Positions 4,979 through 62,710 of a DNA stretch of 64,000 nucleotides are shown one piece after another (positions within the stretch are counted from its first letter, which is position 1; each line of letters starts with the position of its first letter). The DNA is from Tribonema minus (Eukaryota; Sar; Xanthophyceae; Tribonematales; Tribonemataceae), in the NCBI GenBank assembly GCA_017506865.1, contig JAFCMP010000027.1, positions 1-64,000 on the forward strand. The letters run 5' to 3'. Position numbers and translations under genes: made by a program. Under the pieces are notes generated by a model. The model saw only the letters and a program-made list of their open reading frames with translations, did not search any database and was not told the origin of the DNA.

Positions 4979-5516
4979 GCTAGTCAAAGGAGGCGTGCTG
5001 TACCGAGAAAGAGGGCTCAAAGTTGAAAAAGAGAGATATGGGATGACATGACACTATCAACGGCAGCATGAGTGCGTTCTCGGTGTCTCCACAACCCTCA
5101 GCACTCCCTGCGTATCATCAGCGCCACCGCCTGCTGCCAAATGCCCCGATGGCGTTTCAGCATACGCTACCTGGCATCAAGGGTACACGCATGTATCATG
5201 GAGTGCGAACGGCAAGGAGCGAGAGGTGGCATTTCAGCATGCACCACTTGACGTCTAGGGGGTATGTATGTATCACGGGTGCGCAGCGCGGCTGCAATTT
5301 GTACGAAGGGGGTATGTATGTCATACTTTGGCATGAAGGGGGTATGTATGTATCACGGGGTGCGCTCGCCGACTTCTCGAGCCGCGCGAGCGGCGCCTAG
5401 AGCCACGGTAAGGAGCGACAGACGGCGTTTCAGCATGCGCTACTTTGGCATGAAGAGGGTATACATGTCATACTTTGTCATGAAGGCAGTATGTATGTAT
5501 CACGAGGTTTGCTCAC
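4979..5516. repeat. Imperfect tandem repeats between retroelement and GEMIN2
   Basis: The stretch repeats short units: a GGTATGTATGTATCACG-like word appears at about 5260, 5340 and 5490, and a 'GGCGTTTCAGCATGCGCTAC'-like word at about 5152, 5230 and 5430. It also includes a donor-edge echo of the last visible GEMIN2 exon (5370-5407). The missing C-terminal GEMIN2 exon is not here, and I see no gene. Confidence 0.6.
5370..5407 (-). repeat. Donor-edge echo of GEMIN2 exon 4
   Basis: A near copy of the last about 38 bases of the exon ending at 5517, placed 147 bases downstream in transcription. The donor GT has become GC in the echo (5364-5369). Confidence 0.7.
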
Positions 5517-8500
5517 CGGCTTCTCGAGCCGCGCGAGCAGCGCGTAGAGCCACGCCGCGCGCGCGTTGGACAGGCTGCGCCACCGCAGCCACCCCGCGTG
5601 GTGCGTCAGAACGCGGATCACCGCCACCTGGTCGAGTTGAAGTAGCAGCGCAGTGGACGGCGGGTTTCCCTCTGGACACCTGCGGTGCATGGCGGGACAG
5701 GCAGCAGGTACTTGAAGTTCATGTGGGTCAAGTACTACATTTGACGTTTACGTTTACGTCGGACAAGCGGTGCTAAGGATCTGACACCATGACTCTACTT
5801 TGGCGGAGAAAGCTCAAGAAGTGTGCAAGTGGGCCACTGCAACATAGCGGTCATGCTGAAAGAGCAGCACTGTCTAAAGAGGGAGGGGCTTCAAACCCTT
5901 GATGATGACGACAGTCACCGTTTGACCACATTCGGCGGGGTATGCATGTAGGGCTGTTGGTGATGGTGCCCATCCTGCACGCATATGCTGCACAATATAC
6001 AACACTCTCGTTGAGTGTGGGTGTATGCTTTGGTGCATGAGGATGCAGGTGTCCATATCTGGCAATCAAAACGCTTGCCGCAATTCAAATTTGCTCACCT
6101 TTCGAGCCAGTCCAAGCCCCACGCCCTCGCCTCCTCCGCAGGAGCGTCACCCTCCGCCTCAATCGACTCATCCCCCTCCCCGCCCCCCTCCGCACCCCCC
6201 AAACCCCCCGTGCCACCCCCCTCCTCCTCCCCCTCCAGCACCCTCTCCTCCCCCTCAAACCCCCCTTGCGCCTCCTGAAGTTCAAGTTCGCCATCCTCAA
6301 TCTCTCCCTCCGCCCCCTCGGTGCCCCCCTGTTCCCCTGTTTCAGGGAGAGGGGGCTCTGTCTCGTCGCCCTCTGCGACCTCCGCGCAGCCGAGGCAGTA
6401 AATGTGCCAGCCCTGCTCGTCTTTGAGCGCGGGGACTTCGACGCGCTGGCCCGATTCCTGAGACGTTATGTTGGTTAGGGCGATGTGTGCACGCGGTGAG
6501 CTCGCATGTATCTACATATTCCCAGAAAGCGTGCACTTGATCTTGGGGTGTGTGTGTGTGCGTGTGTGTGTAGGGGGGGGGGGGGGGGGGGGGGGGGGTG
6601 CCTGTGTGTGTGTGCGTGACAACAGACTTGTCTGAGACGGAAACCATGCCGCACATTAGCTCGCATGTATGTACACATTCCCAAGAAGCGTCCTTGAGGT
6701 ATTCAGCGAACTTTGATGTATACATACGTACACACGTGTGACAACAGCTGTGCCAGAATGGGACAGGGCGAGGAGAGATCGAGGCTGCTGTTTTGACCTG
6801 TGTTGGCGGTGACAGCGCCTGCAAGGCTGCACATATCTGTGATAATCTACTTGCCGGAACTTGAAGAGCGCGAGACTGCTTGGCAGTTGTGGCGGCGACC
6901 GGTGCGGTGTGCCACGCATATACGCAGAACTGAAACCTTGGGGCTGCGGCGCACAACACAGCAAAGAGCGTGCTGTGCGCAGTGGCTGTGTATGCACCCA
7001 GCTTGTGGCTGCAGGTGGTGAAGGCCAGCAGAGGCTGGAGGGACCCGATACTGGCAGCAGTTACGCATGGCAGTTAAAACAGAGAGCAAGCCAGGTGCAA
7101 CTATGGGGCGCGTTCGTGGCCGCGCCACAGGTGCAATACGGACCTTGCATCTGACACGCCTTGTACTCGCCATGCTGCTGCGCAATCTACCACTGCAATG
7201 TATACTATCGACATGCTGTACCACATCAAAGTGTTGCATGTTTTGCCAAGATGACTGCCAACTTGAAGTTTGTACTTGAAGCTGCAGCGTACCTTGGACC
7301 CCACGCCCTGGCTGGTCCAGTACACGAGGTACTGCCGAATGACCATGCTGTGAAAACTGTCACTAGACTGTATACTTCGAAGTATACTTTCTTCATGTTG
7401 AATCATATCAATGTCACACACTCTTCACAGACTGCCAACTTGAAGTTTACCTATTTGAAGTTTGCAGTTGAGCAGCGTACCTTGGACCCCACGCCCTGGC
7501 TGGCCCAGTACACGAGGTACTGCCGGATGTCCACAAACGCCGCCAGCGCCTCCCGCTCCCACTCGTCCGCCGCCAGCAGCGACTTGCTGCACGTCACAAC
7601 AGGCTCCAGCCGGGGTATGTAGGTCGACGCGGCAGCGGCGACGGCGGCGGCGGCGGCGCTGCTGCTGCTGGCGCTGTGCTGGCTGCCGACAGTTTCAGTT
7701 ACGGACGGGTCGGCGGTTACGACGTCAGGGATGCCCTCCGCCTCATATCTGCAGTGCGTGAGGGGGTTGGTGCGAGGGGTGGGAGCAGCGGAGTGCTGCT
7801 TGTGGTCAACTTCAACACCAGTGCCAGAAGTTGCATTCCACAACTGCCAAAGAGGGTGTGCCTGTTCAGCGATACAGGGACAGCAACAAAGTTTACTGCC
7901 GTATGCAAGTATTGATGCAAGAACGCTTGCGTGGCTGCTGTGGCAGCGCAATGAACGGGTGTCTGGTTGTACTGTTATAATCAGTATGATGAGCACACCC
8001 AGTTTGTGCATTGCTCCACACTTCTTGTACAAGGCTACGTTGCACACTCGCCAGTGGTTTTCTGTGTGTGTCGGTGGTTGGCAGCTCTGGGAGTGTTGCA
8101 CAAATCGTGTGCACGTGATGAAAGGGTGCTGAACAAGCATACAACATCAGGTAGTTTCCAAAGCAGGTGCTGCGTGCTGCTTAAATTGGAAAATGTGCCA
8201 GGTCATTATGCTGATCGTTGATGAGTTGAACAGAGCAAATGCACCCCTGTGCAGCCAACATGTGCTGGATGTCGTCGAGTTCACCGCGTGCCACAACCTT
8301 CTGATTTGCGCCATAGAGGCCAGCGAGCGTAAAAGCAAGGGAGAACGTGATGCTATCGGCGATCGGTGACCAATGCTCGCAGACTGGTCTCAACATGCAT
8401 GTACCCAGTGAAGGTGTGCAAGGCTGTAGGTCTGGTACTTCAACTAATGTTCCTGATCCTCTTTTTCTGCTAGCAAGCTTCCTTTGTGCTCGCTTGCGAC

Positions 8501-8640
8501 GGCCAACACTCTCTATCAGAAACGCACCTGACCCTGAGCAAGTACTCCTCCGCGCTCAGAGGCGGCTCGCCTAGCTTCGCCCTGGCGAGGATCTCGTCCC
8601 TGGTGAAATCATCGTCGTACACCGGCAGCACAGGCTCCAT
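5517..8640 (-). CDS. GEMIN2: GEMIN2 (SIP1), SMN-complex subunit, C-terminus missing
   Basis: GEMIN2 holds the Sm-protein ring while the SMN complex assembles spliceosomal snRNPs. Four exons join in phase: 8528-8640, 7481-7748, 6099-6457 and 5517-5679 (301 codons). Exon 1 encodes LPVYDDDF and EEYLLRVR, the SMN/Sm-contacting N-terminus of the family. Exon 2 has EAEGIPDVV and the EWEREALAAFVDIRQY helix. Exon 3 has DEQGWHIYCLG followed by an acidic, Gly-rich insert. Exon 4 has AAWLYALLARLEKP, a diagnostic stretch. The family normally continues about 50 more residues; that part is not found before the retroelement, so the gene is either split by it or truncated. The start is the first ATG in frame (8640). 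The neighbouring 9031 gene is divergent. Confidence 0.85.
6540..6620. repeat. Simple repeat: TG run, G run, TG run
   Basis: A GT-rich tract, then about 28 consecutive G, then another GT tract, in a GEMIN2 intron. It may form non-B DNA and is error-prone in sequencing. Confidence 0.9.
7293..7345 (-). repeat. Donor-edge echo of GEMIN2 exon 2
   Basis: Repeats the last about 50 bases of the exon ending at 7481, plus its GTACGC donor, 188 bases further downstream. The flanking intron bases (AACTTGAAGTTT) are copied too, so the duplication spans the splice junction. Confidence 0.85.
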
Positions 8641-9030: not shown

Positions 9031-12000
9031 ATGGCTCTCGTTGGGCAGAAGCCCGTGGACGGCCGCCACGACGACTGGATCTCGTTTCCCTACGAGAGGG
9101 AAGGGATGGAAATGAAGTGAGCTTGGCGTGGTGTTGAAGGCTTTGCGGCAACTGCTGTGTATTGCCATGCCTTGTTCTCAAGTGCTCAAATCCACGAGAA
9201 TACGCAATTTTTACACAAGGTGCACGTTGGACGACATGAGGTCAATGAGGGTCTCGGATTGCGTGACAGTGAAGCTTGCCTGCGAAATGTGCAAGGTTGC
9301 CGTGCATTAGGATCCCTTGGAGTAAGAATATGGCACAGAGACACATCCAATGTGTTTCCATTTAACCCTCCCTGCTTCAATTCCTGCATTGATTTCTACC
9401 CAAAGGCAGCTTGCAGGGTGGGTGGGTGCTCTCACGTACACTGAAGCTGACATGTTTGTTTCGTTCGACTGCTGCACCCTGACTTTGAGCATGCACCATT
9501 TCCACCAGACTCATCACTCGTGAATGTTGCACGGTCACCTGCAACACGGTACGCTTTGCCGCTATGGTGTGCCCAGTGCGCTGTGTGACTCAAACAGCGC
9601 TACAGCAGCCTCAGGTCGGCCTTGAACCGCGCAAGTGAGGTGTCGCGTGACTATGACGCATGTCACATTCCACACGTCTCATTTCTACCCACTTTCAATA
9701 CTACTTCAACTTCACTGATATTACCTCAATTTCCAGGGGCGCTCACAACTCTTTATCAACGTCATGACTGCTGTTGTCTGGCTGCTGTCGACAGCTTGAA
9801 CTGGGCCCTGAACCGCGCCAACGTGGTGCCACGCGCCGACGCATTTCACAATCCGCGCCAGCAGCTGCTTGCGGAGCGGCTCAATGCAAAGACGGATGCC
9901 AGCTCTGTACAGCTGCAGGTGAGGCAGCACTCAGCTTGGCAGCAGTGCTCGTGCACAGAACTGGGCTTGTTGCTCCAATACTTTGCAGTTTGCTGATGCA
10001 GTTTTTGGGTTGCTTCCATGTAAGAAATATGCGGGTTCCCTCTGGCTTGCGACCGCTGCTGTTGGCCCCACACACCTGACTCTCCATCACTCTATTGAAG
10101 TTTGCCCTGAGGACGAAAAACTGGCATGGCGACAATCTATGAGGCACGAAGACCATTCATGAGGCACAATGACAGTTAATGCAGTTGAAGTTATGTAATG
10201 ACCGTGACTTGAAGTTATCTAATGACCATGTGCCGCCGCGTTGACTGTGTCGTCTCCGACAGGGCGTCCAGGCGGGCGGCGACTTCCCCCTCTTGGAAGC
10301 CGGCTCAAAAGAGGTGAGGCGCAGCCCGAGGTGCAGCCGCTGGCCGCACTGCATCTGTGCCTTCTTGTTGGGTGCTGACCTTTCAGTAGCACTGTTTCAT
10401 ACCCATAAGGTGTTGCCCCCGCCACTGCCATTGATTCACGCTGTTGCTTTGGTGATTGCTCAGTCTGCGGCAACGCACGGTCACCTGCAGCAACGCTTTT
10501 TCTGCACCAATGCTCAGCCAATTAGATGTACTGCATCGATGTCTCGCCGTCAGTGATCCCTGACAGCATGTGGCTCCATGACTTTATCCCGCGCCTCACC
10601 GTCTGTCGTCGCATGGTCTGCTGGCTCAGCTGCCCTTGGAGTCCATGACTTCATCATTCCGCGCGTCATCCTCTGTTGTTACGCGGTCTGCCGGCGCAGC
10701 TGCCCACTGAGTACATGAATTCATCCTGCGCCTCACTATCTGTTGTCACGCGGTCTGCCGGCGCAGCTGCCCCCTTTGAGTACACAACTTAATGGAAATG
10801 AATCAGAAGATCGTAGAGCTCTTCATCCCGCGCCTCGCTCTCTGTTGTCATGTGGTCTGCTGGCGTAGCTGCCCCCTCCGCGTCCATAACTTCAACCCGC
10901 GGCTCACTCCCTCGGCATGTGATTTGCCGGCGCAGCTGCCCTTTGAGTCCATAACTTCAAAGAAACAAATCAAAAGATCGTAGAGCTCTCCATCCCGATC
11001 GTAGAGCTCTTCATCCCGTGCCTCACCCTCAGTTGTCACGTGGTCTGCCCGCGCAGCTGCCCTTTGAGAAGTACGACACGCTGGAGGGCGTGGTGCAGAA
11101 GTTCTTCAGCGAGCCGGGCCGCGATCTCTACGTGGCCACGGGGTGAGTCAGAGTCTGAGTCTGAGCCTGTAGTAGCTGTTTTGTGTGTGTTCTCCGCGCA
11201 TGATGCAGTGCCCAGCCAGTCCGCCTGAGCCATCAGAGCCTATTCATGGCCACAACGCCTGTCTTTGTGGCACTCATGCGTTGGTGCCAACGCGTATGAT
11301 GCAGTATTGCCCTCTTGCATTGGCCAGCAAAGCCTGGTGGCCCTCGTTAGGCTGAACTTCCTGGCACTGTCCTATCAATCCATCTCTGTTATTGCTTGGG
11401 GCGATCGTGATACGTACCCATATGTCGTGATACCTACCCATATGTCATACTTTCCGCAGTAATGAGCTCCACGGTCATGGCCATGAAAATAGTGAAAGTG
11501 CCAACCTGAGCGCTGAGCATATGTTCCTGCGCTGCTCACTGCCGGGCACAATGTTAACAGATTCATAGGGTCGTACCGGGGCGCGACGGTAGGATGATGT
11601 CCCTACCTGCTTGCACGTGCATCTTGATAGAAGCGGTCGCAGCGGTGCCGTCTGACTAGTTGAGCACCGCAGCACAGGAACTCCGAAGTCATGAAAAGTG
11701 AAACTGCCAACCTGAGCGCTGAGCGCGTATTGCCGCGCTGCTCGCTGCTGCGCACAATGTCAACAGATCCATAGGGTTGTACCGGGGCGCGACGGTCAGA
11801 AGATGTCCAAACCGCTGGCCCGCGTGCACGTACAATCATGTTTGAAGCGGTCGTAAAGGCGCCGCCTGACTACTTGAGCTCCACCGCAACACAGCGAATC
11901 CACAGCAAGTCATGGCATCAAGAGAGTGAAACTGCCCGCCAGAGCGCTGAGCATGTGTTGCCCCGCTGCCGCTCACTGCAACAGATCCGTAGGGTCCTAC

Positions 12001-15000
12001 CGGGGCGCGACGGTCGGCGTGCGAGTCATCACGGACAACCCGGCGCTGTGCCTCATCGCTCAGAACCTGCTGGTCCCCGCGCCGTACATCAAGTACGAGA
12101 CCATCGACTCGCCGCTGCCGCCCGTGGTCTTCTACGTCACGGACAAGCTGCAGGTGAGAGAGCGGGTGCAGATAGTGACAATGGTGGCATGTGGTGATTG
12201 TGGTTGGCGTGGCGGCAGGGTACTTGAGCGCGGCGGCGGCTGCTGCTGCCGCTGCTGCGGCTGGCGCTGCCACCACTGCGGCACGCCCGTGCAAGGTGTT
12301 CATGCGTTTTAGGGTTTACAAACTTCAACTTCAAAAGTTGAAGTTTTTGTCATGTAGTGCGTTTACGGCCGACGAAGTGTTGACGTGCCATTTCTCAAGT
12401 GCACAAATACCCAGTGCAGACGAGAGACTCCAAGTGCCAATTTCTGCACCGGTGCCACGTTGACTGCAGCAGCTGACCTCTGCCAGACGACACCGATTTG
12501 AACACTCGCACCCCTTTGAAGTTACACCATTTCATGCCCCCCCATAGAACCCCTGTCACCTCACAGCCATCCCCCCCCCCCCCCCCCCCCTCCCCGCGCT
12601 CCGCAGACGATAGGCGCGGTGCAGTACCAGGAGGGCGACGGCGGCAGCCTGAGCGGTGCCACGGGCATACTGTGCGGAGCGGCGGGGGCGTGCCAGGCGG
12701 CGCTGATGAGCGCGATTGAGGAGACGGCGGCGGCGCTGCTGCTGGTACGTATGGAAACGATAAAAATGATCGTAGAGCTTTAGGTGACAAGGTGTGGTTA
12801 GCCACCAGTACCTTCCACCAATAACCGTGGTCGCCGCTGCAGCAGCAATTGGCCACGAGTCAAACAGTGCCACCATGTCATCAGGCGCCAAAAGACTTGT
12901 GTGTTTGCGCTTCGCATCAGGTGCTCAGCTGCCACTCTGTAACTGAGACTAGCGGCGACGGCGCTGCTGCTGGCATGTATGCTTGTGCTTCGCACCAGGT
13001 GCTCAGTTGCCATGACTGACTCTGCAGAGTGTTCATGAGCAGATTTTGAGCGTCGATTGAACGCATACTGCCGCCACACAGCAGCAGAAGGGTACGGTGG
13101 TTGATGTCTCAGGTGATGGGGAGTGTGTGCTTGCGGTCATGAGGGAACCGCTGGGGGCGTGCCAAGCGGCGTTTGCAGCTGTTGTCAGGAGGTAGGACGG
13201 CTGAGCCGCTGCCGGCACGTATGTGCATTATACGAGGACGCACCCGCATCACCCAGCAACAATTTACAGCAGCCAATTCAATGGAGAGAAGGTATTCAGA
13301 GTAGGACAGCTATCATGCTGTCGCTTTCTCAGGCCTACTGGCCTGTGGGTATAAAGGAGTTGAAAGGAGGGCTGGCCGCCAAATCTGTGTACACATGCCA
13401 CCGTGCTGGATAACAGGAAGCAGCCGTATCAGAAGGCCTGGGACAGAACAGCTGACACACACATCAGTGTTGACTTCTGCTGAGCAACTCTTGAAGTTTG
13501 CAGTGACCCATTTTCTTGGGGTCCTTGAAAACATCGCTGTATTCATGCCCATACGCAACTCAGAGGCATGACTTATGATGCTATCTCAGGCCTGTGTCCG
13601 TTACTGTAAGGGAGTTGAGAGCCACTTTTGATATGTGTATCCACGTGGGGGGGGGTTACACACTGGGGTACCCGCCTTACCAGAGCGGTTGACCACACAC
13701 AGCACAGCCACGTAGGTAGACTACATACTCTTATCTTGTTGTCTTGAAGCCGCTTTTTGAAGTCAATACCACTAAAAGCGTCCGTTGTGAACATACTTGA
13801 GCCCGCGTGCTGAACCTCCTATTGTATATACCCAAGTGCACCCCATCAAAGCATATTCCGCAAAACCATGTCAAGTCCGCCTTAGGAGCGCGATGCATAT
13901 CACACTTGGGTCAGCTTAGTGTCAGGGTTAGGGTTAGTCGAAGCAGCGCCTCTGTTCTGACGAGCTGACCCTCCGCGCTCGCTGACATGTATTACAGGAA
14001 CACGAGGGAGTGGTGCCACTGCCCGCGTCAGTGCTCCGCAAGGGAGCTAAGACAGCGCTGCTCTTCAACGCCAGGTGAGTTGATCGCTGTGAGGGGGTAA
14101 TCTTGGAACAGCAACGTTATCGGGGCCTCGGCGAAGGTGGGGTTCACATTACCCATGGAACAACGCTTGCTGTGGGGGCATAGGCTTGAAAGTCATGATT
14201 TTCGGGGCTACGGCGAAGATTGGGGTTACATCAGATGTGGGACAGCACCCAGCAGCAGCGGGGGCCAGGCTTCAAAGTTGAGGTTAACGGGGCAGCGAGA
14301 TTAGGATTCAGCTGTGGGACAGCGCTCAGTAGTGGGGGGTCAGGCTTCAATAATGAGGTTATCGGGGCTAGGGCTGGGGTTTGGGGCAGGGTTAGGGTGG
14401 TCACCACGGTACTGCGCTGGCAGTGGGGGGACAGGCTCAAAAGTTTATGTTACTGGGCCTCAATTGCTCATGTGGAAAGCGTGCAAGCTCCAGGCTCCTT
14501 CCTGCGTGTGTTTGCACATCCAAATCCCCACCATTCCTGCGGTCAGCGTTGGCAGCACAGACGCCAGCGTCTGTGGCCTTGTCTGCTTCGTCCGCTTTGA
14601 GACAGTTCGCTGAACAGAGTTAATCACGGGGCCAATAAAGACACGCCAGCTGTGCGGAAGCACACAGTAGCCACCCGCTGCCGACAGCGCATGTCGGTAG
14701 CACGGCATCAGTGCTCAAATGTACTGCCGCTGCCTCGCAGTGCATGCAATTACACGACATCAGCGATCATTCGACTCAAAACATCACAGACCAGTTATAT
14801 GCTGGTCGAACGTCCATTCCCGAGTAGGTCAGCCGCTCACCACAGGGCGCCGGGGGCAGCTGCCACACTTGCTGTGAGACGTTCAGTGTTAGGGTTAGGG
14901 TTGGGTGTGCAGGCACATGTGATGGCCTGGTAGCAACGCCGTACTTCTACCGCGTTGCCTCATGCAACGCCAGTAAGTAAATCCTCACGTAATCATTCCA

Positions 15001-16838
15001 GATCCTCACAGGCGTGCACAGCACGCCTCAGCCGCAACGCCTCCACACCCGCTGCGAAGGCAGCAGCAGCAGCAGCAGCAGTGCAACTATCTCACTCCCC
15101 CCTTCCCCCCCTCCCCTCTCCCCCTTTCAGCACGGCTCAGCTAGGCGAGGCCAAGTCTGCAGGCGCACTGTACTGTGCACACGGCTCAGTCCTGTGCCCT
15201 GACAAGGGGGTGTCGGCCATGTGGGGGGGCGCCGTCGTCCCCCCTGCCAGTGCGGGGCCCGCGCAGGTCAGGAACTTCAGTTTTGCATAACTTCAACTCT
15301 CAGCCACTGCCGCCATGCGTCAGTTCAAACAACTTCATTCCACCTTCAAGTCTTGAGCCCCCCGCCGTGCGTCAGCTGAACAAGTTCATGTCTAGAATTA
15401 TTGAAACCTTGATGCCTATGAATAAGTCAACATTTACAGAGCGATGAGAGAAAGCAACGGTTCTACTTGCCGATGCTGTCAAGGTTCTTGCGGCTAAAAC
15501 CGCTGCAGTGTCAGCTGCTAAGAACACGTCTTTTTATTTGGCACCGCTTCTCTCTTCTGCATGCTGACCTATGCGCCGTTGCTCATATTTGCCGCTGTGT
15601 CTCCTGCAGAGCCAGTTGTCGGTGGTGGCGGAGGGTCTTTACATGATGTGATGATTAACAACGTTTGTTGTGCATGCGTACAGGAACTCAATAGTTTTTC
15701 TTGGGCTCGCGGCTCCCGCCAGACCATAATATCTTTTCATCTGGTGCCGCTTTCTGCATACTGACCTGTGCGCCGTTGCTCACATTTCACATTCGCTGTT
15801 GCGTCTACTGCAGAGCCGGTTGTCGGTGGTGGTGGAGGGTCTCGCAACGGTGACAATGCCCACTGACAACCTTGCCAACGCGCCCACGAAGGCGTTCTTC
15901 CTGGGGTCCAAGGCATCGGGAGAGCTGTCCCAGGACCAGATCAAGGAGGTCAGGCACCCGAATCAATTCATGAATGGATTGATTTAATATTTGTGAATTA
16001 ATGCACTCGATTCACAGTCGCTTGTTCATACGCGTGGACGCATCAGATCGAGGCAGACAGGTGCATGGCACAATGCGACAGCAGACCCCGTTGGTCGTAA
16101 CGCGTAGCTCTCCTTTTGCTGTTGAGGGGTTGCACCCAGTGCTCTCATCAATTGCTCATGCACGTGATCTAGAGATGCACAAGAGTCGCAAGTGTGCAGA
16201 CAAGATGTGTGTTGGCATTTATGCAGAGAGAGAGGGGTAATGCGCAGTGCATGTATTTCCCTCCCTTTTGATGCTGAGCTACCGTCCGTCCTCCAACTGC
16301 AGAGGGGGGTACTGCGCAGCGCATATATTCCCCTGCATTGCGATGCTAAGTCGCTGTCTAACCCTCCAAACATGCAGGAGCTCGAGGCGCTGAGCGTAGA
16401 GGCAGGCGCATTTTCATTTCTTACCCATTGCTTCAATGCCGTACATTTTCCTTTGTTTCACTTCACGTACATGTTCATGTACTTCCCCTTGAAATTGTGT
16501 GTGAGTGTGTGTACACCTTGCGCGGAGGGAGAACACTGTGCACGTACTTCCCTCCCTTAAGATGCTAAGCCACTGTCTATCCTTTGCGTGCAGGAGCTCC
16601 AGGCGCTGAGTGTTGAAACGGTATATTTGGCCAGTTGCAGAGGGGGGTCATGCGCGGTGCATGCATTTCCCTTCCTTGTGATGCTAAACCACTGTCAATC
16701 CCCTTCAACGTGCAGGAGCTCGAGGCGCTGAGCGTAGAGGCGGACGCCGCCGCGCGCTTCCTCGAAGCCGTCGCGGCCTCCAAGATGTTCGTCACGGCCG
16801 TCCCGTCCGTCAAGGCAGCGCTCGACAAGCTCGCATAG
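9031..16838 (+). CDS. Conserved-looking protein of uncertain family, weakly ATP-PEPCK-like
   Basis: Ten exons close in phase to 374 residues: 9031-9116, 9795-9918, 10263-10313, 11057-11142, 11985-12153, 12607-12744, 13998-14074, 15131-15266, 15814-15948 and 16716-16838 (TAG). All donors begin GT and all acceptors end AG. The protein has LNWALNRANVVPRADAFHNP near residue 30 and GVRVITDNPALCLIAQNLL near 125, the latter vaguely like the N-terminal domain of ATP-type PEP carboxykinase. There is no P-loop (no GxxGxGKT) and the length is short, so it would not be an active PEPCK. No signal peptide or membrane segment is seen. I do not recognise the family with confidence and assign no function. Introns 1, 3, 4, 6, 8 and 9 contain diverged copies of the neighbouring exon edges. 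Confidence 0.75.
9615..9690 (+). repeat. Possible acceptor-edge echo, exon 2 of the 9031 gene
   Basis: CAG plus 'TCGGCCTTGAACCGCGC' and following bases resemble the real exon start at 9795 (CAG, then CTTGAACTGGGCCCTGAACC). It is strongly diverged and lies 180 bases upstream. Confidence 0.45.
10605..11056 (+). repeat. Five-fold array of decoy acceptors before exon 4 of the 9031 gene
   Basis: The junction 'GCAG, then CTGCCCTTTGAG' of the real exon (11057) is preceded by five diverged copies whose exon-like starts are at 10630, 10700, 10767, 10869 and 10936. Each carries the upstream CTGTTGTCACGCGGTCTGC-like intron end and then diverges into TCCATAACTTCA instead of AAGTACGAC. Two spacers contain an AATCARAAGATCGTAGAGCT word. 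Confidence 0.9.
11474..11984 (+). repeat. Two acceptor-edge echoes before exon 5 of the 9031 gene
   Basis: About 210-base units end in AACAG, then ATCCRTAGGGT. Exon-like starts are at 11561 and 11767, with the real exon at 11985. The echoes keep about 30 bases of exon (to GGGGCGCGACGGT) and then leave homology. Confidence 0.9.
12750..12830 (+). repeat. Dispersed repeat (GATCGTAGAGCTTTAGGTG family)
   Basis: Shares AGAGCTTTAGGTGACAAG and about 40 further bases (GGTTAGCC...CTTCCACCAATAACCG) with the minus-strand copy at 21345-21432. The head of the motif also occurs near 10797, 10970 and 39075. Confidence 0.7.
12950..13215 (+). repeat. Two donor-edge echoes after exon 6 of the 9031 gene
   Basis: Copies of the exon end GGCGCTGCTGCTG with donor context lie at about 12953-12972 and 13150-13213; the second also keeps GGGGGCGTGCCA from inside the exon. 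In both the donor GT has become GC (GCATGT, GCACGT versus the real GTACGT). Confidence 0.75.
14885..14905 (+). repeat. Interstitial telomere-like repeat (TTAGGG)
   Basis: GTTAGGGTTAGGGTT. Comparable short runs occur at 13925, 18290-18340, 28214, 43412, 44238 and 44876-44912, with CCCTAA-type runs at 50322, 51152 and 53568. Confidence 0.85.
15540..15650 (+). repeat. Acceptor-edge echo, exon 9 of the 9031 gene
   Basis: Intron end and exon start are copied 204 bases upstream. The exon-like start is at 15610 (AGCCAGTTGTCGGTGG); the real exon starts at 15814 (AGCCGGTTGTCGGTGG). Confidence 0.85.
16230..16715 (+). repeat. Acceptor-edge echoes, exon 10 of the 9031 gene
   Basis: GTGCAG followed by GAGCTCGAGGCGCTGAGC occurs at 16378 and, diverged, at 16594, before the real exon at 16716. 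A further intron-only copy ends near 16302. Unit content also includes a repeated GAGGGGGGTMMTGCGCRGYGCAT block. Confidence 0.9.
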
Positions 16839-17677: not shown

Positions 17678-20600
17678 TCATTTGTGTGAGCTGTCGTCCA
17701 AGTTCATCACTGGCACGTCCTCCACGGCGCTCTCCGACAGCTGCGGCAGCAGCCGCTTGGCCCCCCTCCCTCCCACTTCCTCCTGCACCGCCGAAATATC
17801 CACGTGAACGTCCAAAGCCGAACCCGCCGCCTGTGTCACTGCCTCCGGAGCGAACGACACTGCCGCCGCCACTGCTGCTGCCGGCGCGCCGCCTGCTGCT
17901 GCGCCGCCTGCTGCTGCAGCTGCGGCGGCGCTGGCACTGGAGGAGTTGGTGGTGGTGTCGGCGTGGCTGTGAAGCGGCGGGTAGAGCTGGTTGATGGCGC
18001 GCGTGCGCACCAGGACCTTGGTGAGGGCGCGTCCGAGGTCCGCCTGCGAGAGCTCCATGTGGTAGAGCTGCGGCGCGGCGGGGCGAGTACGGATTACGTA
18101 GGGTCGCATGAGTATCTATTTGGCCACACAGGTATGTACAGCGTATTTGGGCCGTATTTGGCAACCAGTAATGCATATTGAGCGCGTGCGCACGAAGACC
18201 TTGGTGAGGGCGCGGCCAAGATCCGCTTGGGAGAGCTCCATGTGGTAGAGCTGCAGCGCGGCGGGGCGAATGCGGATGACTAAGGTGTAGGGTTAGGGTT
18301 AGGCTTTAGGGTGAGGGGTTCGGTTAGGGTTAGGGTCGTACGCGGGCAACTGATTGCATCCCTGCGCAATGGCTGCCAGCCTTAAAGGGACCATGGCCAT
18401 CTCATGCTTTCTGCAAGTGAGCCGTGATCAAAACCAACGCACTTGAAGTTCAGCTGCTTCAAGCTGAAACCTTTTACTCTGTATGCACTGCCATTTATTT
18501 GAAGTACAGATACGTAGGGGAGGACCCCGAGATGCCATTTGGCGGCGGCGGCGTTTGAGTGGTTGTCGTTGCGACACTTTCAGACTGTCATACGACATGT
18601 AGATTCCTTACAGCTAGATGCCAATCATCTGGGCTTTTTCGCGCCCTGAGCGAGAATCAATAAAAAGTACAGATACTGAAGTATGTCAGCATCTGATGCG
18701 TGCCTGTGATACGGCAATCAGCTTCCAAGAAACCTCAACCGTTTTGCTCTGTCTGGAAATCAGCCGCGAGGTCAAGATCATTTGAGTACAACTTCACGCT
18801 GAAGCATGTGTTGAAGTTGGCACAGGTATCTCGTTCTAAACCAGAAGCAATACCTACCTGTGACTTGACGGCTGCTAGCCCTTCTTCGCCAAGAACTGAG
18901 AGGGCTGGATCAGCTCGGCGGGGCCCCTCGCCTCTCTCCTCAGCTGCCCTGCGTGCCTGCTTGGCCAGCTGTACACGCTCCTGCGAGCAGAGGAGTTGAA
19001 GTGACAGTGCTGCTTAAGGCTAGGGCTAGGGTTGTGGGCAGTAGATGTTAGATTTTGTGCGTGGATGAGCTGAAGCGATGCTGCAGCTTAGGGTCGGGCT
19101 AAGCGTCAGTGCACACGCACGCGCATGTGAGCATGAACGCTTGCGTTTGCTGCGCCCTTGCACTTTTTGACATCATGTGTGTGTGTTGACTGCTGCGCCA
19201 CCTTGAGCTGTTGCACAGCATTGCTGGCTTGCACTAATAGCATCACCTCAGCCGTCGTGATAAAAATCCGGGAAGGTAGCGTCAGGCTTGGGGCATGGCT
19301 GCAGTTGTACTTTTCATTAATTCTCGCTCAGGGCGCGAAAAAGACCAGATGAATGGCATCTGACTTGAAGCTTGCTGCAGTTATACTACTTGCTCAGGTT
19401 GAGAGTCCATGCATTGATTGTCCATATGCAGACCAGGCATTGGTCGTGGTCGCTTTGAAATGCATTTGCTTGTGCGTTGTACACGCACAGTCAGTACATG
19501 CCTCGCTCAGGTGTACAGCATACTCCGTTTGCATGCGCGCGCTTAGCGCTTCCATCACTTCAACAGCCTGCGCGTCTGCTTCGCATACCGTTGTACACCC
19601 AACTTCAATTTGAAGAATGTCACTTCAACATGCAAGTGGCTTCAAGTCATCAGAGACATCAGAGATACGCGCACCTGTTTCTTCTTCTCGCGCTCATCCC
19701 GAGCAGCTTGTCGCGCCTCCGGGTCCTCCGAGATGTTCTGCAGTTGTAATTGAAGTTGAAGTCGCAATGGCAGTCGCATATGTCACGACCACGGTCATTA
19801 GCAGCAGCAAAAAGGCCGCAAGGGCCTGAAACCGTGCAACGAAAGCAGTAGTCTCAAAAATGGTTTCATGCCTTGGGAGGGTTCGGAGTTGTTTACTGTG
19901 ACGTAGCTTGCACCACCTGTGTACGCGCTGGAGCACACTTTTCTCTGAAGTTCTGCCAAACCGACTTGAACTTTGACATTGAAGTTTGCGTTTGTGCCAA
20001 TGCCCTGTTGTCTCAATCCCGGTCATGTGCACCACGTGGTTATCCCGGTCTTATGCAGCGTACCCCTGGTCTTGCATGCACGCCCACACCTCACAGAGGG
20101 CACGAAGGGTCTTGTACCAAAACATGAGATGGGGGAGTAAACATAAGATGGGGGGGGTAGAGAGGGGGGTTGTCCCCCCATGATCTACGGTAAATGAGTC
20201 AAGGGTAAGTGAGTACTGTTGAAGTGCACACTTATCTGACAAGTGCTGAAAACACCTACACCCAATGTCACATAAGTCTCCATAGGTCCTGTCCCGATAC
20301 AAGAGCACGAGAGCGCTTCAAATGAAGGAGTGCCTTCACTCACCTCTTCCAGGTAGCGTACAAACTTGTTGGCGGCGAACACGAGCCGCTTGAGGTCCTT
20401 GGCCATGGGGTCCAGATGACCTGTAATGATAGAAGCACCCTCACTTGTTAAAACGAGTGGTATGGTGCATGGCAGTGCTCAGAAGCACGCTCACCATGAA
20501 AACTAGGGGTGGTATGTGTGTGCATGGCAGGGTGCTGCTGAGAGGTTCACATGGAGCCATCAACCATGGCGAACGACCTAAGCACAACGTGTGAACAGCT

Positions 20601-23600
20601 TTGCAGGCGCCTTGGGGTGGACAGAAGTTGTTGCTATGCTAGTGACGTTGACCCAGCTTCGATATGACTTCAACAGCCGAACACAAACTTCAAGCCCTGA
20701 CTCACTGTTCAGATGCCACCATTCCCCTCCCTACCCCCCCCCACAAGCTTCAATTGTGACTTGACAGGCAAGCACAAACTTCAAGCCGTGACTCACCATC
20801 GAGGTGCCCCAGCGCTTCACGCACTGTCTCGTACGCCTTGTCGACGGTCGCGAGGAACATGGACACCACCACGAAGAACATGAGGAAGATGAAGCTGAGG
20901 AACAGCAGCGTGCCAATTACAGGCCGTGCGTCACGCAGCTTATCGACGTCAAAATTGCCCAGCACCTGTAGGGGTGGGGGGGGGGGGGGCGGGCGGCAGG
21001 GGGTTGGCGCGGATGTTGCAGAAAGAGTAAGATGTGCAGGGTATGCTATGTGATACGAGCATACATGCCAGCAAGCGGGCAGATGCTGGACGGGCGGACC
21101 GCACCGCACATACTGGCATCAGATCTCTGCTACCGCGGTCTTATAAAATTAATGTGTTACTTCAAGTAGATGGTATCATTTTAGGTACCAGTGTATTCCA
21201 GTCCACTTCCAAGACTCTACTTGCCATGCTCAGTTTCCTGTGTTGTGCTAGCACGATGACCGAGCCATGAGCGGCGTGGACTGTGAATGGCAACAAGGCG
21301 GGTGTGTATTTAAATTAAAGCAGTCGTCGGCTGCGCCATCAAGCTGGTGTACGGTCATTGATGGAAGGCACTTGCGGCCAACCATCACTTGTCACCTAAA
21401 GCTCTATGATCTTTTGGTTCATTTTCATTCATGGTCGTGAGGGCTTCCGCATGCCACACAACTCACAAACGGCCCTGACCGACTCCAGCCGGCAGCAAGG
21501 CTTAACTTCTTTGTAACCTTTGCTGCTGAGCAAGGCCACCAAACTTGGTGCGAGGGCGAAGGCCTGGTACCCCCCTCCTCACGCGCGTGCGCGCACACTC
21601 ACAAAGCATCACAATCAGGCTTGCACTGAACATGCACCCGCTCTGCGCGCAAGTTACTGCGACTGCGTCATTCACCACAAACAATGCGCAACTATCATCA
21701 CCCCCCCCCCCGCACCAGTATTGCCAAGAGGAAGAAGGGCTGAAGCGCTCTGGAAACTTCAATATCAGAGGCAGCTCACGGACCGCAGGTCTGCACATAC
21801 ATGAGCCGCCGCGCACGCGCCGCAGCGCGTCCGTTCTCACCGATTCAAACAGTGACAACAGGGACTCGGTCACGTTCCGGTACTCCTCAAAGTAGGCGCC
21901 AAAGGCGAGTGTGAAGGCCAGGCCGTAGCCAACGCACACAATGACGATGATGGCGGTGAGCACCACCATCTCGGCGTAGGCGACGGCCAGCGTGTCCGTG
22001 AACTGCGCCAGGCGCTTGTTGGTGTGCGTGTACTTGAAGACCTGCGCGGCAGCGCTCAGCGACACGTGAACTAAACTCGAGATCGGAGGATCACTTCTGC
22101 ATGCCGAAATGTCATCACGGGCAAAGCCATGACAAGGGCAACAACAGTCCTGATCAATGTGCAGTGAGAGGTTACTCAAAGGTGTGGTTTCGTGAATTGC
22201 ACCAGGCGCTTGTTGGCGTGCGTGTATTTGAAGACCTGCGCGGCAGCGCTCGGCAGCGAGGCGGCACATGAACTTCAATTGTGAGGTTGGATAATGGCCT
22301 TTGCATTCAGCACTGTCAGCATGCGCAAAGCCATGACACGGGGCAACAGCCTTGCTCACTGTGCAATGACAGTTGACTTACAGGTGAGGGTCAGAGGAAG
22401 GCGCGTAATGTGACACGCGCATTGCCCAGACAGCACGGCGCGACAGAGCACGCATGCATCGGAAGCTCTAGACCTTAGCTTGAGTCTTGTGAAACAGGTC
22501 GCTAAATGCCAACTCCGTAGTGCCATGGTACATGTGTTTGAAATGTGCAATGTACCCTCGATATCGAAACAGAAGTATGCTGAGGAGCAAGCATGGAGTG
22601 AAAAGCAGCATTCTCCACACAGCTGCACTCACTGAGCGCCCGCCACTTTCCAAAGCGACTCTTTGATTTACTTCTATAAGTATTGAGGCACATCACAATA
22701 GCAGGAGATGTGAGCACTGCTGCAGGTGCCATACGCAGAACACTGGCCGCAATGAGCCACATAAAAATTGACGAGAGTGGCATCCACAACATGCAGATCA
22801 GATGGGTGCCAGGCCGCTTGGCCCAGCGAAGCCGAGAGGTGAGCGCAATGGCAGCAATGGCTGCTGTATGCAGATACCATTGGCACCGACACATTCATGC
22901 GCAGCTCTAGTAGCCGTTTTTACGACTACTATCGTCCACACAAGAGCACGTGTGCAAGAAAACTTGGGCACTGGCGTGTGCATTTGGAGCCCCAGTTTTG
23001 ATTTTCATGATTAGCATCGTCCACACAGGGCAGGGGACGCACCTTGATGAAACACAGCACGCCGTTGAACGCGTTCACGGAGTCCGTGTACATGTTGAGG
23101 TCGGCAATCCTGCAGTTGAGCAATGCAACAGCACCAGACAGACATGCGATCAGGCGAGGCAGTCAAATTCTGAGGGGGTGACCAGCAGTGCGTATTGGCA
23201 GCATCACGAGCCTGAGGCATGCAGATGTATCAGCAGGCCCCATCTGGTTTTGCCTATTCACCAATTGCGACTAGCCGAATGACCGGTGGCGCGAGGTGTG
23301 CGCCCTGAGCACTGATGACAGCTGTGGCGACAGGACTGCTGTAGGGCGAGGATGGCAGGAGCAGAGTGCAGGGTCAGGAACTAATACCGCCGTTGCGATC
23401 ATTGCCGCAGAAAAAAAGGCCAGTAAGCGAGACACAGGGCCACCAAGACGGGTCAGTATAGTAAAATTATGAGGCCACCATGGACAGTGAAGTTAGCATG
23501 CTTGAAGCGCCAGTTGCTGGTTGCAGTGGGTCAAATCCCACGCGGCAGCCTTTCTTAACCCCTGATGGGTCGCCGCGCTCCTCAAGAAATGGCCGCGTAC

Positions 23601-38277: not shown

Positions 38278-39370
38278 CTTGATTGCATGCCGTGCATTGA
38301 TCATCTGCTCCCATCCTGTCTGGCTTCACATGTACTTAATTCCCATCGCGCATGGCTTCTGTTGCGTCATCACTCAATGCCACCAAACCGCTGCCTGCGA
38401 CGACCCTGATGCGCACAGCGTGCATGCCGTGTATTGATCATCTGCTCCCCATCGCATCTGGCTTCACATTTGCTTGCATGCCGGTGCCATGGCTTCTGTT
38501 GCGTCATCACACAATACCACCAAACCGCTGCCTGCGACGACCCTGATGCACACAGAGTTTGCCCTGCGCCACTTCACAATGTTGAGTGTTGTGAACTATG
38601 CGCTGTCATGCTGACACTGAGCCAGTTGCATGGCGTATCCGGTGTATGCACAACTTGTAACGAGAAGCACGTTGAACTGTACATGCGCAGCAGGGCAGTG
38701 GCGAATCCAAACGCTGTTGGTCAACATGCAGCACGCAAGCTCGCAGACTCTCAAAATGCACATCAGGTGTACATGAGACACGATGTCATGGAACATAATG
38801 GCACCAAGTGTACATATGCTGTATATGTGCCTTGTGTAGACAACGACCGCAGACACTGAACCATATACATTTGCTGAAGAATGAAGTGGTGGCACACCAG
38901 CGCAACCACACACCGCTGCCTGCAATGACCATGTTGTTGGTTGCAAATGCGCACTGGGTTTGCCCTGTGCACTTGAGTGTTGTGAACAGTGTGCTGTCAT
39001 GGTAACACTGAGCCAGTTACATGTGGTATTTGGTGCAAGCACATTTTGCAATAAATAGGACGTTGAACATTTTATTAAAAATGAATCGAAAGATCGTTGA
39101 GCTTATATGCAACAAGGGAGCGGTGCATCTGGGCAATGAGAAGGATTTCGAACTTCTCATATGCAGCAGAGGAGTGTGGTGTATGGGGGGCACCTTGACA
39201 TCAAACGCAGTTTTCAACACGAGGCACGCAAGCTTGCAGGTGCTCAGAATGTACATCAGGTGTACATGAGACATGATGCAATTGAACATAATGGTACCAA
39301 GCACATGCTGTATATTTGTCCTGTGTAGACGACGACCGCAGACACTGAATGATAAACATTTGCTGAATAA
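38278..39370. repeat. Nested diverged tandem duplications
   Basis: A roughly 135-base unit (GCATGCCGTGNATTGATCAT...) occurs at about 38286 and 38421. A longer unit of about 400 bases starts with TTTGCCCTG at about 38561 and again at 38959; both contain GTGTACATGAGACA, GACCGCAGACACTGA and a GCTGCCTGC start. Translation shows no convincing protein. I see no gene between 37677 and 39831. Confidence 0.8.
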
Positions 39371-52400: not shown

Positions 52401-52478
52401 GCCTAATAAGCCGAGACAGGTGCAAGCAGGCAGTGTGAGGGCGCTTTCGTGGCAGGAGTGGTGGCATAAAATACCTTG

Positions 52479-53020: not shown

Positions 53021-56000
53021 ATGGAGCATGAAGCGGATTCTGCGCGGCCAGGGGCCAAACGGAGCGCTGAGGGCGGCTCGGAGAAGAAAGCGCAGCAACA
53101 GGCGGCCAAGAGGTTGCGGAGGCAGGAGAAGCAGAAGCGTAAGCACCAAGGCGAGAACCAGCACAAAGGCTCTGGTGCCAAGCCCCAGGGCATTGGCAAT
53201 CTCAGGACCGAGGCTCAAGCTGTGAAGTACTACACCGATGATAATGGATTTCGACAGGTGCCACCCTATGTGCACGAGTTCCAGACTTTTGCCAAGGACA
53301 GGTGAGCACCACGTGATAGCAGTCTCAAGTACCTCCTGTACAGCAATGATACTGCACACATCCTGGGAAGTTTGCAAGCACTGGGCGTGCTTCTAAAATG
53401 CGCTCTGCCTAGGATCAGGTTTGTACATACATGATGTGTTGAACAGGGCCTCTATGGCCAGCAGAACTGCGCTATGCAAGCAGCAGTACACCACACACCA
53501 CCAGATCCATGCAAGAGTGATCCATTCATGCGTGAACAGGAAAGCAGTGACACTCCATCTTCACTGCTCCTAACCCTTACCCTAGGGCAACAGGCAATGC
53601 TACCACAGATGCCTCTTGGTTAAAGCATTTCGACCAGCCTGTGCTAGGTTGAAGTTGCAGGGGCATCACCCACAGGGCTTCCGCCTCTTGCACGGTTTCT
53701 GCGGGCGCATGTTATCAGGCCTGCAGCTGCCCGCACTATTTTCACGCAGAGTCAATGGAGATGGCGAAGGCATACACGCACAGACTGCGGCACAGTTTAA
53801 GGTGAGGACAGAGCCCTCACGAAGCCCAGATACACATGCGCTACAGGGCTGCGCTGCCAGCTGAGCATGGCAGACAGAGACCACAAAACGCTGGCGGCAA
53901 ATGAAGAGCAGCGCTGCTACTGGTACCGCAACCATCCGCCCGCTGTCGCAGGCGGCCGGAGATGAGTGGTGTTTGACGTTGATCTGCACCAGCACTTGCT
54001 GGTGCGCCCCTGTTGCTACTAAGCCTGCAGTCGTGTTCCAGCGCACATGGCGAGTGCGTAGAGCAATGAAGCGCCCGTCAAATGTCCTCGCAGCACCGCG
54101 CGCTCTTGCTGGTGGCTTGGGCAGAGTGTTTTGTGGGCATGCAGACGCGCTCAGATGGAAGGTGCGCGCGATGCACTGCACTGCCGCCGCCCGTCGTCAC
54201 CAGCAGCGTCACCTTTAAAACACAGCGCTCAGCGGTGTAGGGTGCGCCGCCGCCCATCGCTGTCGCCGTCACGGTGCTCCATACCTCCTCCGCACTTGCA
54301 GTTCCGATGTGACTTGCGCTTGCGGTTGTGCTTGTGCTTACGGAAGCTGCACACGTGGACTTGCCCTTGAACTGATGCTTGCGCTTGGACTTATGCTTGC
54401 ACCCGCACTCGTGCTCGCTCATAGCTTGGGGAGCAGTGAAACTGACATCTGCACGGCGGAGTTTGCCGCAGAGACGCGTGCGTACACCACGCTGCTGCCG
54501 TTGTTGTTCACTCCACGTTGCTTTGCAGGCAAATTGCAGCCCTACTTCCACTTGAACTCACACTTCAGCTTCTTCAACTTGCATCTGGACTCAAAATCGG
54601 CCTCAGATGGCTCGGGCGCAGCATTGAGGACGTCAACACGGCAGAGTTCGCCGCAATGGCACGCGCGTATGACGCAGCCGCTGTCGCTCGTTGTGCTTTG
54701 AACCTGATGCACACGTACAATTAAAACTCAAACAAAATAATCACTTCACATGCTCTAATTTATTTTTAGAAATGAATACTTGTACTGCACACCCTACTTA
54801 GATGAATAATTGTGTTCGCACACGTCAGGTGGCTCCGACGCAGCGTCGATGACGTCTACACGGCGGAGTTCGCCGCGGAGACGCGCTTGTACTACGCCGC
54901 TTCCGTTGTTTTTTGCACCTCGGCATTTGAAACACACTTGCACTTGTACACTTGAACTCACACTTTCCACTTGAATGTGAGCTATGAAACCCTCAGGTGG
55001 CTCGGGCGCAGTGTCGAGGAGGTCTACACGGCAACGTTTGCCGCAGAAACGCGCGTGTACTGCGCCGCCGCCATTCTTATTTTCACTCTGGCATTTGAAC
55101 ACACTTGCGCTTGTACGCTTGAACTCACACTTCAACTTCCACTTGAACGACCCTCAGGTGGCTCGGGCGCAGCGTTGAGGACGTCTACACGGCGGAGTTC
55201 GCCGCGGAGACGAGCGCGTACTACGCTGCCGCCGTCGCCGGCGGCCGCATCACCGTTAACGGCGCCATCGTCCCCCGCGACTACAGAGTCGAAGCGGGCG
55301 ACCTGCTGTCGCACAGGGTGCACCGCCACGAGCTGCCGGCGGCGGGAGGCGCAGTTGAAGTTGTGGCGGAGACGGACGAGGTCCTGGTGGCGAACAAGCC
55401 CGCGGGGCTGCCCGTGCACCCGTGCGGCGCGTACCGCTACAACACGCTCGTGTGTGTGCTCGCGCACCAGCGCCCCGCGCTGCCGCAGCTGCACATCTGC
55501 CACCGGCTCGACAGGTGAGGCCGCTGCGCGCGCTGCCAATGTCGCGCCGCAGAGATAGCTGTGCGCGGCGTGGGCAGGCAGGGGGGCACTGTGGATAGGC
55601 CGGCAGACACTGACAGCTCGCTTTCGTGCGCCAGTTGCCAGGCAGTCTTCCCTCAGCCATGAGCCCTGCCGGCAGCTCTTGCTCCCGCTCTGCCTGGCGG
55701 CGCATTGTCCTGACGAGCCTGTATTCCCTCTCAGTGACAAGTGCTGAGTCGGCCGTTAACTCTCCCCCCCCCCCCCCCCCCCTCTCTCTCACCCTCTCTC
55801 TCTCTCTCTGCGTGCGCAGGCTGACGTCGGGCATCGTGATCCTGGCCAAGAGCGCGCAGAAGGCGGCCGCCGTGTGCGCGCGCGTGCGCAGCGCCAGCGC
55901 TCAGAAAACGTACCTGGCGCGTGTCAAGGGGCGCTTCGGCGTCGCCTTCCCCCCCGCCCTCTGTTGGGATGGGCAAGGGGACGCTCCGCCCGCGTACTGG

Positions 56001-61870: not shown

Positions 61871-61901
<31 letters not shown>

Positions 61902-62596
61902 GGGAGGGCACGGACACCAACGGTAGCCGGATGTTCGGGGGACAGTGCTGTCAACTGCTAGGCTGCAGCTGCTTCATGCACTGCTAGGCTGCGGCAAACT
62001 TTCTACATGAAGTCCATGCACTGCAAGCTTGCACATCTGACACCAGACATCCAGGAAAGCAACGATTAGCTTCTTGGCAAAGCGCGGACCTGCACCAATA
62101 GGCTGTGGCTAATTGCCTACTTCATGCACTGCTAGGCTGCGGCAAACTCCCTACATAAATTTCATGCACTGCGAGCTGAACGCTTGCACATCTGAGACCA
62201 GATATCCAGGAAAACAACACAGCGCTTACTGGCAAAGCGCGCACCTGCACCAATCACTGGAGAGTCGCCCACTTGCCCCCCCCCCCCCACACACACACAC
62301 TTACACACACATGAGATCAGATTTTCAGACAAGACTGAGTAATGACAGTGAGACTACTGGCAATGCGCGCACCTGCACCAATGACGGGGGAGTCACCCAC
62401 TCGCCCCGGGTGCTTGAAGGGCCACCCGCTGGTGCTGGTGCCCGCCGCAAGATGACCATTGACATCCAGGCAGATCATGCCAATGGTGTCGTGGGGAGCG
62501 TCAATCTCAACTGACACGGTTGCCCCTGCTGTGTCCGTTGAAGTGTCACTTGCCGGTGCTGGGCCAGCGGCGGCAGTCCCACTGTTCTCACAAGAC
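60573..62596 (-). CDS. AGA: N4-(beta-N-acetylglucosaminyl)-L-asparaginase (aspartylglucosaminidase), C-terminal exons
   Basis: A lysosomal-type Ntn hydrolase that cleaves the GlcNAc-Asn bond of glycoproteins. Three exons join in phase: 62373-62596, 61680-61834 and 60573-60791 (TGA). The first carries [20 protein letters not shown]; the Thr after HD is the autoprocessing site and nucleophile of the family. [18 protein letters not shown] and [13 protein letters not shown] follow, then [17 protein letters not shown] near the end. The intron after 61680 has a GC donor (GCGAGT), again phase-supported. The N-terminal (alpha-chain) exons are not secured: a minus-strand segment at about 62840-62975 (PYLIAFGLAPRAADL, NTCFWLQKELWP) may be one, and the start probably lies right of the window. 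The gene converges on the HMG gene. Confidence 0.88.
61240..61570. repeat. Minisatellite and exon-edge echo in an aspartylglucosaminidase intron
   Basis: GGTCTGCGGGGCGAGTACAG-type units repeat three times (61265-61350), then CAGCCAATGATGAACAGG repeats at about 61470 and 61537. The GAGCCACCGCCTTCACACAT piece at 61445 echoes the end of the exon at 61680. Confidence 0.75.
62085..62290 (-). repeat. Donor-edge echoes of the aspartylglucosaminidase HDTIGM exon
   Basis: GGTGCAG plus the GT donor of the exon ending at 62373 is repeated with exon-like ends at 62245 and 62090. The units also share CATGCACTGCTAGGCTGCGG and CCAGGAAA words (period about 150). Confidence 0.88.
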
Positions 62597-62659
62597 CTGC
62601 ACAGCACGGAAGCGCGCCACCAGCGGCATTGTATCAAGTGGTGAAGAAAGAATGATTGA

Positions 62660-62710
62660 GGGCATTTCGCCATGATGTTTGTGTCATGCGGAGCATCATC
62701 ACCAGCTGCT
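62660..62710 (-). repeat. Degenerate copy of the aspartylglucosaminidase catalytic segment
   Basis: Minus-strand translation reads [12 protein letters not shown], echoing DAPHDTIGM of the real exon about 170 bases further downstream. It is diverged and has no donor. Confidence 0.6.

Follow-up and report, generated by a model that had tools for sequence, protein, structure and literature searches.

The first 64,000 nucleotides of contig JAFCMP010000027.1 of Tribonema minus (Xanthophyceae; NCBI GenBank assembly GCA_017506865.1), to which we refer as the window, contain genes whose introns hold a second copy of a splice junction together with part of the adjoining exon. We show that such copies, here called echoes, recur elsewhere in the genome, and our analysis indicates that they are probably the remains of short local direct duplications, mostly arranged head-to-tail, in which the duplicated unit spanned an exon-intron boundary. 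Units that cross a junction are more frequent in the whole sample than uniform placement predicts, and the divergence between copies is roughly that of one live copy under protein constraint and one free copy. The roughly neutral decay of the spare copy is, in this sense, largely shown.

The sample consists of the window and 25 scattered 10-kilobase (kb) pieces chosen by coordinate (314 kb), to which two kinesin genes were added, giving about 330 kb out of a genome of 158 Mb. Exon boundaries were taken from a purpose-written gene-finding model, self-trained on the window and the 25 pieces. On convergence it called 337 exons, with a median length of 138 bp, and 282 introns, with a median of 404.5 bp; the splice signals were sharp (AG^GTG(A/C)G at donors, CAG^G at acceptors). 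Five of the seven window proteins sent to Pfam gave matches (SIP1 for GEMIN2, PKD_channel, Ctr, PseudoU_synth_2 and Asparaginase_2), as did proteins in six other loci (GAPDH, Aminotran_5, Aminotran_3, ATG9, Pkinase and EF-hand/fn3), and many exon calls are therefore sound. Local direct repeats were kept at a spacing of 40-600 bp and a score of at least 45 bits, lower-scoring overlapping pairs being dropped along with rows of trimer complexity below 0.55 (81 of 318 rows); figures for identity, divergence and decoy splice sites rest on BLAST alignments of the copy pairs. The junction tests were limited to events within genes of at least three called exons and left out exon-exon events (five in earlier versions, four in the final one), and exon calls shorter than 70 bp that lay wholly inside a repeat copy were not counted as exons (15 in the first pass). 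Also removed from the final test were L004, L006, L009, L018, L020 and L028, judged to be transposon, virus-like or satellite loci, together with exon calls shorter than 40 bp and an antisense exon at 36682. That 15 short exons called by the model sit wholly within local copies is in itself a warning for gene annotators.

The repeats are direct and local. Searches returned 318 rows of local direct repeats in the real sequence and none after a single shuffling by two-base units, confined to blocks of 300 bp. After the complexity filter, 90 independent direct events were left in the window and the 25 loci, against two inverted events at matched thresholds, and we therefore ascribe them to a direct-duplication process. 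Junction echoes are present in 12 of the 25 scattered pieces and in both kinesin genes, in line with the earlier expectation that they would extend beyond the window, and six of the 25 pieces are without any local direct-repeat row. Copies overlap or lie less than 25 bp apart in 35 of 79 events; of the other 44, 19 carry a spacer similar to its head-to-tail partner by comparison with shuffles, and 14 by comparison with random stretches. A tandem origin is supported for about two thirds of the events, 54 of 79 by the shuffle control and 49 by the stricter one, and is assumed for the rest. Several copies form arrays at a single junction at 10575-11068, 16298-16747 and 54603-55235 in the window, and in L036. 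Over all junction events the spacing is 65-534 bp.

Nearly all junction events (55 of 59) cross a single junction, with all 29 donor echoes lying downstream and all 26 acceptor echoes upstream of the real edge; the remaining four are whole-exon, multi-exon or exon-internal, and three of the 59 hold a whole exon or several. The sequence-only reading had counted this consistent geometry as evidence. We do not, because an mRNA made with the inner copy would contain intron sequence: the arrangement is forced by keeping the protein intact and therefore adds no evidence.

The excess at exon-intron junctions was assessed by shifting each duplication randomly inside its own gene and scoring as crossing any event in which a copy takes in at least 10 bp of exon. 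Crossings were seen in 57 of 79 events, compared with an expectation of 33.5 +/- 4.2, and none of 20,000 draws was as high. The same holds for clusters with only one pair (31 of 45 against 17.2 expected) and for events that score 100 bits or more (35 of 46 against 23.0). In seven controls the exon labels were displaced, either mirrored or moved by 300-1100 bp; these gave 23-37 crossings against 31.7-33.9 expected, six of them within chance. In the two kinesin genes, which were picked for their Pfam-matching exons before echoes were inspected, 12 of 14 events cross a junction (6.2 expected, p = 0.0012). Restriction to Pfam-supported exons gave 33 of 44 crossings against 17.4 expected, with an echo at 36 of 120 junctions, figures that are inflated by the choice of loci (L011, L014, L017, L021, L024 and L027) after their echoes had been seen; the tests on the whole sample and on the two kinesin genes are free of this bias. 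The window alone, under a stricter filter in which the intron part must itself pass the threshold, shows 8 of 13 crossings against 4.2 (p = 0.014).

It is quite possible, at somewhat less than even chances in our estimation, that tandem duplication is uniform and that the excess arises from detection or survivorship, with junction-crossing copies staying recognisable or resisting deletion since one exon edge is protected. Such an account draws on the better conservation of the exon part of the copy pairs, and our simulations give junction-crossing copies a detection advantage over intron-only copies of 1.03-1.42 with exon constraint, and of 1.06 in a second simulation. Even the largest of these values, 1.42, predicts only 41.0 crossings in 79 events, compared with the 59 seen in the version of the test before the extra exclusions. 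Moreover, the excess persists if the threshold is applied to the intron part only (34 of 54 against 18.0), and in that test it is present both at an intron identity of at least 0.84 (13 of 26 against 6.7) and below it (21 of 28 against 11.2), with no difference between the two identity classes (p = 0.51). Truly young events are few, only nine having an identity of at least 0.88 (4 of 9 crossing against 1.6). Nor does intron identity between copies drop with distance from the junction. We lean, on a small sample, towards the view that the excess owes at least something to the places where duplications arise, because the less diverged copies already show it.

If formation is favoured at exon edges, some aspect of transcription or splicing, for instance pausing, R-loops or paired nicks, might break and duplicate these edges in a gene-dependent manner, a proposal we regard as tentative and less likely than not. 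The junction excess, set beside the displaced-label controls, favours a process of this kind, as do the large differences between genes. Echoes occupy 0 of 26 junctions in a putative ciliary gene, 2 of 40 in PKD2 and 7 of 10 in one kinesin gene, so that the earlier claim of echoes in most genes goes too far; load is heterogeneous over twelve genes (chi-square p = 5e-8), but these genes were picked after the echo counts had been seen. The portion of exon taken into the copy, or bite, likewise falls between 20 and 80 bp in 50 of the 55 events that cross a single junction, against about 32 for uniform units (Kolmogorov-Smirnov p = 0.003). We treat this peak as a lead only, since the rule that keeps exon calls of at least 70 bp inside copies could hide long bites and may partly produce it. 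The survivorship and junction-directed accounts compete as causes of the excess while overlapping with the duplication reading itself, and the probabilities we attach to the readings accordingly do not sum to one.

The fate of the copies was followed in 62 echo pairs, whose alignments cover 6013 intronic and 2817 exonic bases. The copies have an identity of 0.902 over exon sequence and of 0.819 over intron sequence, the exon part being higher in 40 of 50 pairs (p = 3e-8); in these 50 junction pairs, identity of the intron parts ranges from 73 to 95%. Edge and echo differ at 61 of 939 (6.5%), 62 of 937 (6.6%) and 145 of 941 (15.4%) first, second and third codon positions, and at 1124 of 6013 (18.7%) intron positions. 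The decoy GT or AG is intact in 47 of the 62 echoes, and 24 of these 47 equal or exceed the real site in score, which bears out the earlier suggestion that decoy splice sites are created. In the other 15 the dinucleotide is lost, six of them now reading GC, which can still serve as a splice donor. The bites carry a stop in 3 of 62 cases and an indel or gap in 14 of 62. Spare splice sites are therefore plentiful, and there is no visible purging of them among these pairs.

The strength of many decoys, along with non-synonymous differences that fall below the neutral-echo prediction, could be taken to mean that echoes are functional alternative exons or regulatory decoys under selection. We consider this improbable, given that third codon positions and introns diverge freely and that decoys degrade through the losses, stops and indels just listed. 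In addition, the inner end of the bite is without a mini-exon splice signal (0.065 versus 0.136 in controls), and for this reason we do not take the low non-synonymous count as evidence of translation.

Introners occur in many eukaryotes (PMC9860276, excerpt), and our sample is small relative to the genome, but an origin from introner-like mobile introns or another dispersed repeat is highly improbable here: among 246 introns compared between loci there were 16 partial matches, none covering half or more of the shorter intron, only one of the 62 echo units matches another sampled locus, and this locus-specificity within the sample speaks against introners. A genome search with 3.5 kb of GEMIN2, which skips very common words, returned only GEMIN2 itself and one low-complexity stretch; it offered no haplotype or paralogue copy by which the duplications could be polarised. 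Assembly artefact or chance similarity is just as implausible, for even though an 87-bp intron-only pair in L014 (1759/2036) shows 100% identity, the 5-27% divergence of the intron parts, the empty shuffle and the ratio of direct to inverted events all speak against it.

Returning to local direct duplication as the preferred reading, we consider it shown that units spanning a junction were duplicated, with copies about 65-530 bp apart. The outer copy stays the live edge, because no other choice keeps the protein intact, with purifying selection acting on codon positions 1 and 2, and the other copy decays approximately neutrally. Repeated copying at one junction gives rise to arrays and longer introns. 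The duplications themselves may arise when staggered breaks are repaired by end-joining or fill-in, or else through slippage, a suggestion based on the direct orientation, the short units and published small tandem duplications (PMC8355091, excerpt).

Several points weigh against this reading. The break-repair step is a putative one, and in 25 of the 79 events (30 by the stricter control) the spacer is not recognisably homologous, so that a head-to-tail arrangement is assumed there. The exon calls are self-trained, with Pfam backing for part of them only, and are not RNA-supported. One displaced-label control (shift -500) was itself low (23 against 33.8, p = 0.006), the excess is weaker once five echo-rich loci are set aside (15 of 32 against 8.8, p = 0.007), and the age test is small, which may leave room for survivorship. 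In the plain test, the window alone gave 10 of 15 crossings against 7.3 (p = 0.12), and it is for this reason the whole sample, rather than the window, that establishes the excess. Finally, the ratio of non-synonymous to synonymous differences between edge and echo is 1.02, whereas neutral-echo simulations using the intron substitution spectrum give 1.53-1.89 (standard deviation 0.20-0.29). A simple neutral-echo model leaves this low ratio unexplained, and coding duplicates hidden among the 62 pairs could account for part of it.

Consistent with the earlier proposal of a link to long introns, introns with copies are longer (median 880 bp, n = 64) than those without (418.5 bp, n = 184), which is partly a trivial result of insertion. 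In introns of at least 900 bp (n = 53), 25-31% of the sequence within 200 bp of either end lies in copies, compared with 16% (from the donor) and 12% (from the acceptor) beyond 440 bp; introns shorter than 900 bp show no end-to-middle gradient in coverage. Detectable local copies make up 25-43% of called intron bases in L017, L024, L035 and L036, as against 11% in the window. A broader picture, in which exon-intron boundaries are gene-dependent hotspots of tandem duplication tied to transcription or splicing, introns grow inward from their ends and strong spare splice sites are continually supplied, strikes us as doubtful. For Chlamydomonas and its relatives, the excerpt of Craig et al. 2021 (PMC8226300) describes the advantage of long introns as unknown and the driver of intron length as probably ancient. 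Exon-edge-biased duplication, if true, would be a concrete source of both intron growth and alternative splice sites, and one that is countable in any genome.

Within the window, ten credible junctions spread over five genes have an intronic echo of at least 45 bits (Table 1). They lie at 5517 and 7481 in GEMIN2; at 11057, 11985, 15814 and 16716 in a gene at 8.8-16.8 kb; at 18067 and 22041 in PKD2, whose product has PKD_channel and Polycystin_dom by Pfam; at 55158 in the pseudouridine synthase; and at 62373 in aspartylglucosaminidase. The sequence-only reading had named a sixth gene, the putative ciliary one (coiled-coil, about 39.8-48.3 kb), in which no junction reaches that threshold. Neither this gene nor the one at 8.8-16.8 kb has a Pfam match, or a PDB match at E 0.001. 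The ten cases have a spacing of 128-338 bp; the 65-240 bp given earlier describes the bulk of the events and misses the tail. Two further pairs were scored as junctional and excluded as doubtful, namely 36513/36629, where the exon call is antisense to by-eye ankyrin repeats, and 14117/14199, where the exon call is only 25 bp.

Table 1. Exon-edge echoes, their real edges and other local duplications in the window
Feature	Positions	Strand	Remarks
GEMIN2 donor-edge echo, intronic	5305..5407	-	decoy GT now GC; one in-frame stop; real edge 5452-5554
GEMIN2 real donor edge	5452..5554	-	exon 5517-5679; Pfam SIP1
GEMIN2 second donor-edge echo	7253..7345	-	spacer against head-to-tail partner: p 0.016 (shuffles), p 0.085 (random stretches)
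GEMIN2 real donor edge	7430..7533	-	exon 7481-7748
Acceptor-echo array, ~67-70 bp repeats	10575..11068	+	ends 12 bp into exon 11057-11142
Acceptor echoes, ~three copies, spacing 208	11474..12017	+	ends ~31 bp into exon 11985-12153
Acceptor-edge echo of exon 15814-15948	15529..15638	+	real edge 15732-15842
Acceptor copies 16298-16409 and 16538-16616, with real edge 16636-16747	16298..16747	+	exon 16716-16835
PKD2 acceptor edge 17999-18097 and upstream echo 18182-18280	17999..18280	-	exon outside Pfam-matched part of the protein
PKD2 acceptor edge 21997-22187 and head-to-tail echo 22191-22389	21997..22389	-	exon 21801-22041 inside PKD_channel
Weak PKD2 donor echo 28187-28219 of edge 28427-28458	28187..28458	-	33 bp; under count threshold
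Duplication off called exons, 137-bp unit, two head-to-tail copies	38284..38558	.	local repeat search
Pseudouridine synthase intronic copies 54603-54654 and 54825-54906, with real acceptor edge 55154-55235	54603..55235	+	exon 55158-55514
Duplication off called exons, aspartylglucosaminidase intron, unit ~148 bp	61969..62254	-	local repeat search
Aspartylglucosaminidase donor echo 62227-62279 and real donor edge 62355-62407	62227..62407	-	exon 62373-62478

Some other features of the window and the sampled loci deserve mention. An 81-bp tandem repeat at 37182-37352 appears by eye to be of ankyrin type on the plus strand, and the minus-strand exon call there (36682-37634) looks wrong. Long plus-strand open reading frames at 1-4860 are by eye reverse-transcriptase-like and share a near-identical C-terminal stretch with L018, probably marking a dispersed retroelement. 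Imperfect telomere-like (TTAGGG)n runs occur outside called exons at 18288-18336 and 44871-44913. Among the scattered pieces, L020, L028 and L012 have satellite-like arrays with a spacing of about 100-390 bp in stretches mostly called intergenic. Long, nearly intron-free open reading frames in L006, L009 and L020 give the impression, by eye, of giant-virus-like sequence of helicase type and are possibly integrated viral DNA. L014 contains a GAPDH gene with an N-terminal SAAAFAP extension, which we take to be a plastid-targeting mark typical of secondary red-plastid algae.

Local duplication across splice junctions, as the sequence-only reading had proposed, accounts well for direct, local and diverged copies; its statement that no named system resembles them was too strong, in that local tandem duplication, including duplication across an intron-exon boundary, has been published (PMC4974935). 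Our comparisons rest on excerpts of the papers cited. In potato, a tandem duplication crossed an intron-exon boundary, and RNA sequencing showed that the duplicate became a new intron (PMC4974935). As in our case, the unit crosses the boundary and copies splice signals. The potato duplicate gave rise to a new intron, however, whereas the copy in Tribonema appears to stay inside the old one and recurs in many genes; its anatomy suggests that the old intron was only lengthened. The AGGT model of Rogers, described in the same paper, has introns gained by exonic tandem duplication, the new intron being the exon copy. There, too, tandem duplication supplies splice sites, but the units found here combine intron and exon and the intron was already present, unlike the purely exonic unit of that model.

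Internal gene duplication (Gao and Lynch 2009, as cited in PMC2809761, PMC3488318 and PMC4974935) refers to the local duplication of segments within a gene, and shares with our events the local direct copy within the same gene. Here, in contrast, we compared junction crossings with uniform placement and saw an excess; the copies are intronic, and no change to the predicted protein is visible. Introners, described as dispersed mobile elements that change intron content genome-wide (PMC9860276), resemble echoes in altering introns and differ from them in that the echo units are specific to their locus in our sample.

Tandem exon duplication, in which a whole exon is copied with both splice sites, does not describe events that in the great majority cross a single junction. 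Small tandem duplications from break repair have reportedly been described in rice by Vaughn and Bennetzen in 2014. Such duplications form at breaks with overhangs (PMC8355091) and, like ours, are short and direct. Most of our units exceed the <100 bp class of that paper, the likeness is drawn on grounds other than microhomology, and the excerpt mentions no exon-edge bias. The literature searched, as far as the excerpts go, held no statement that duplications of this kind cluster at splice junctions; the survey likely to matter most here (Gao and Lynch 2009) lay outside it. Short local tandem duplication is a known process, and what appears to be new in Tribonema is its bias towards exon edges in some genes, with echoes recurring across genes.

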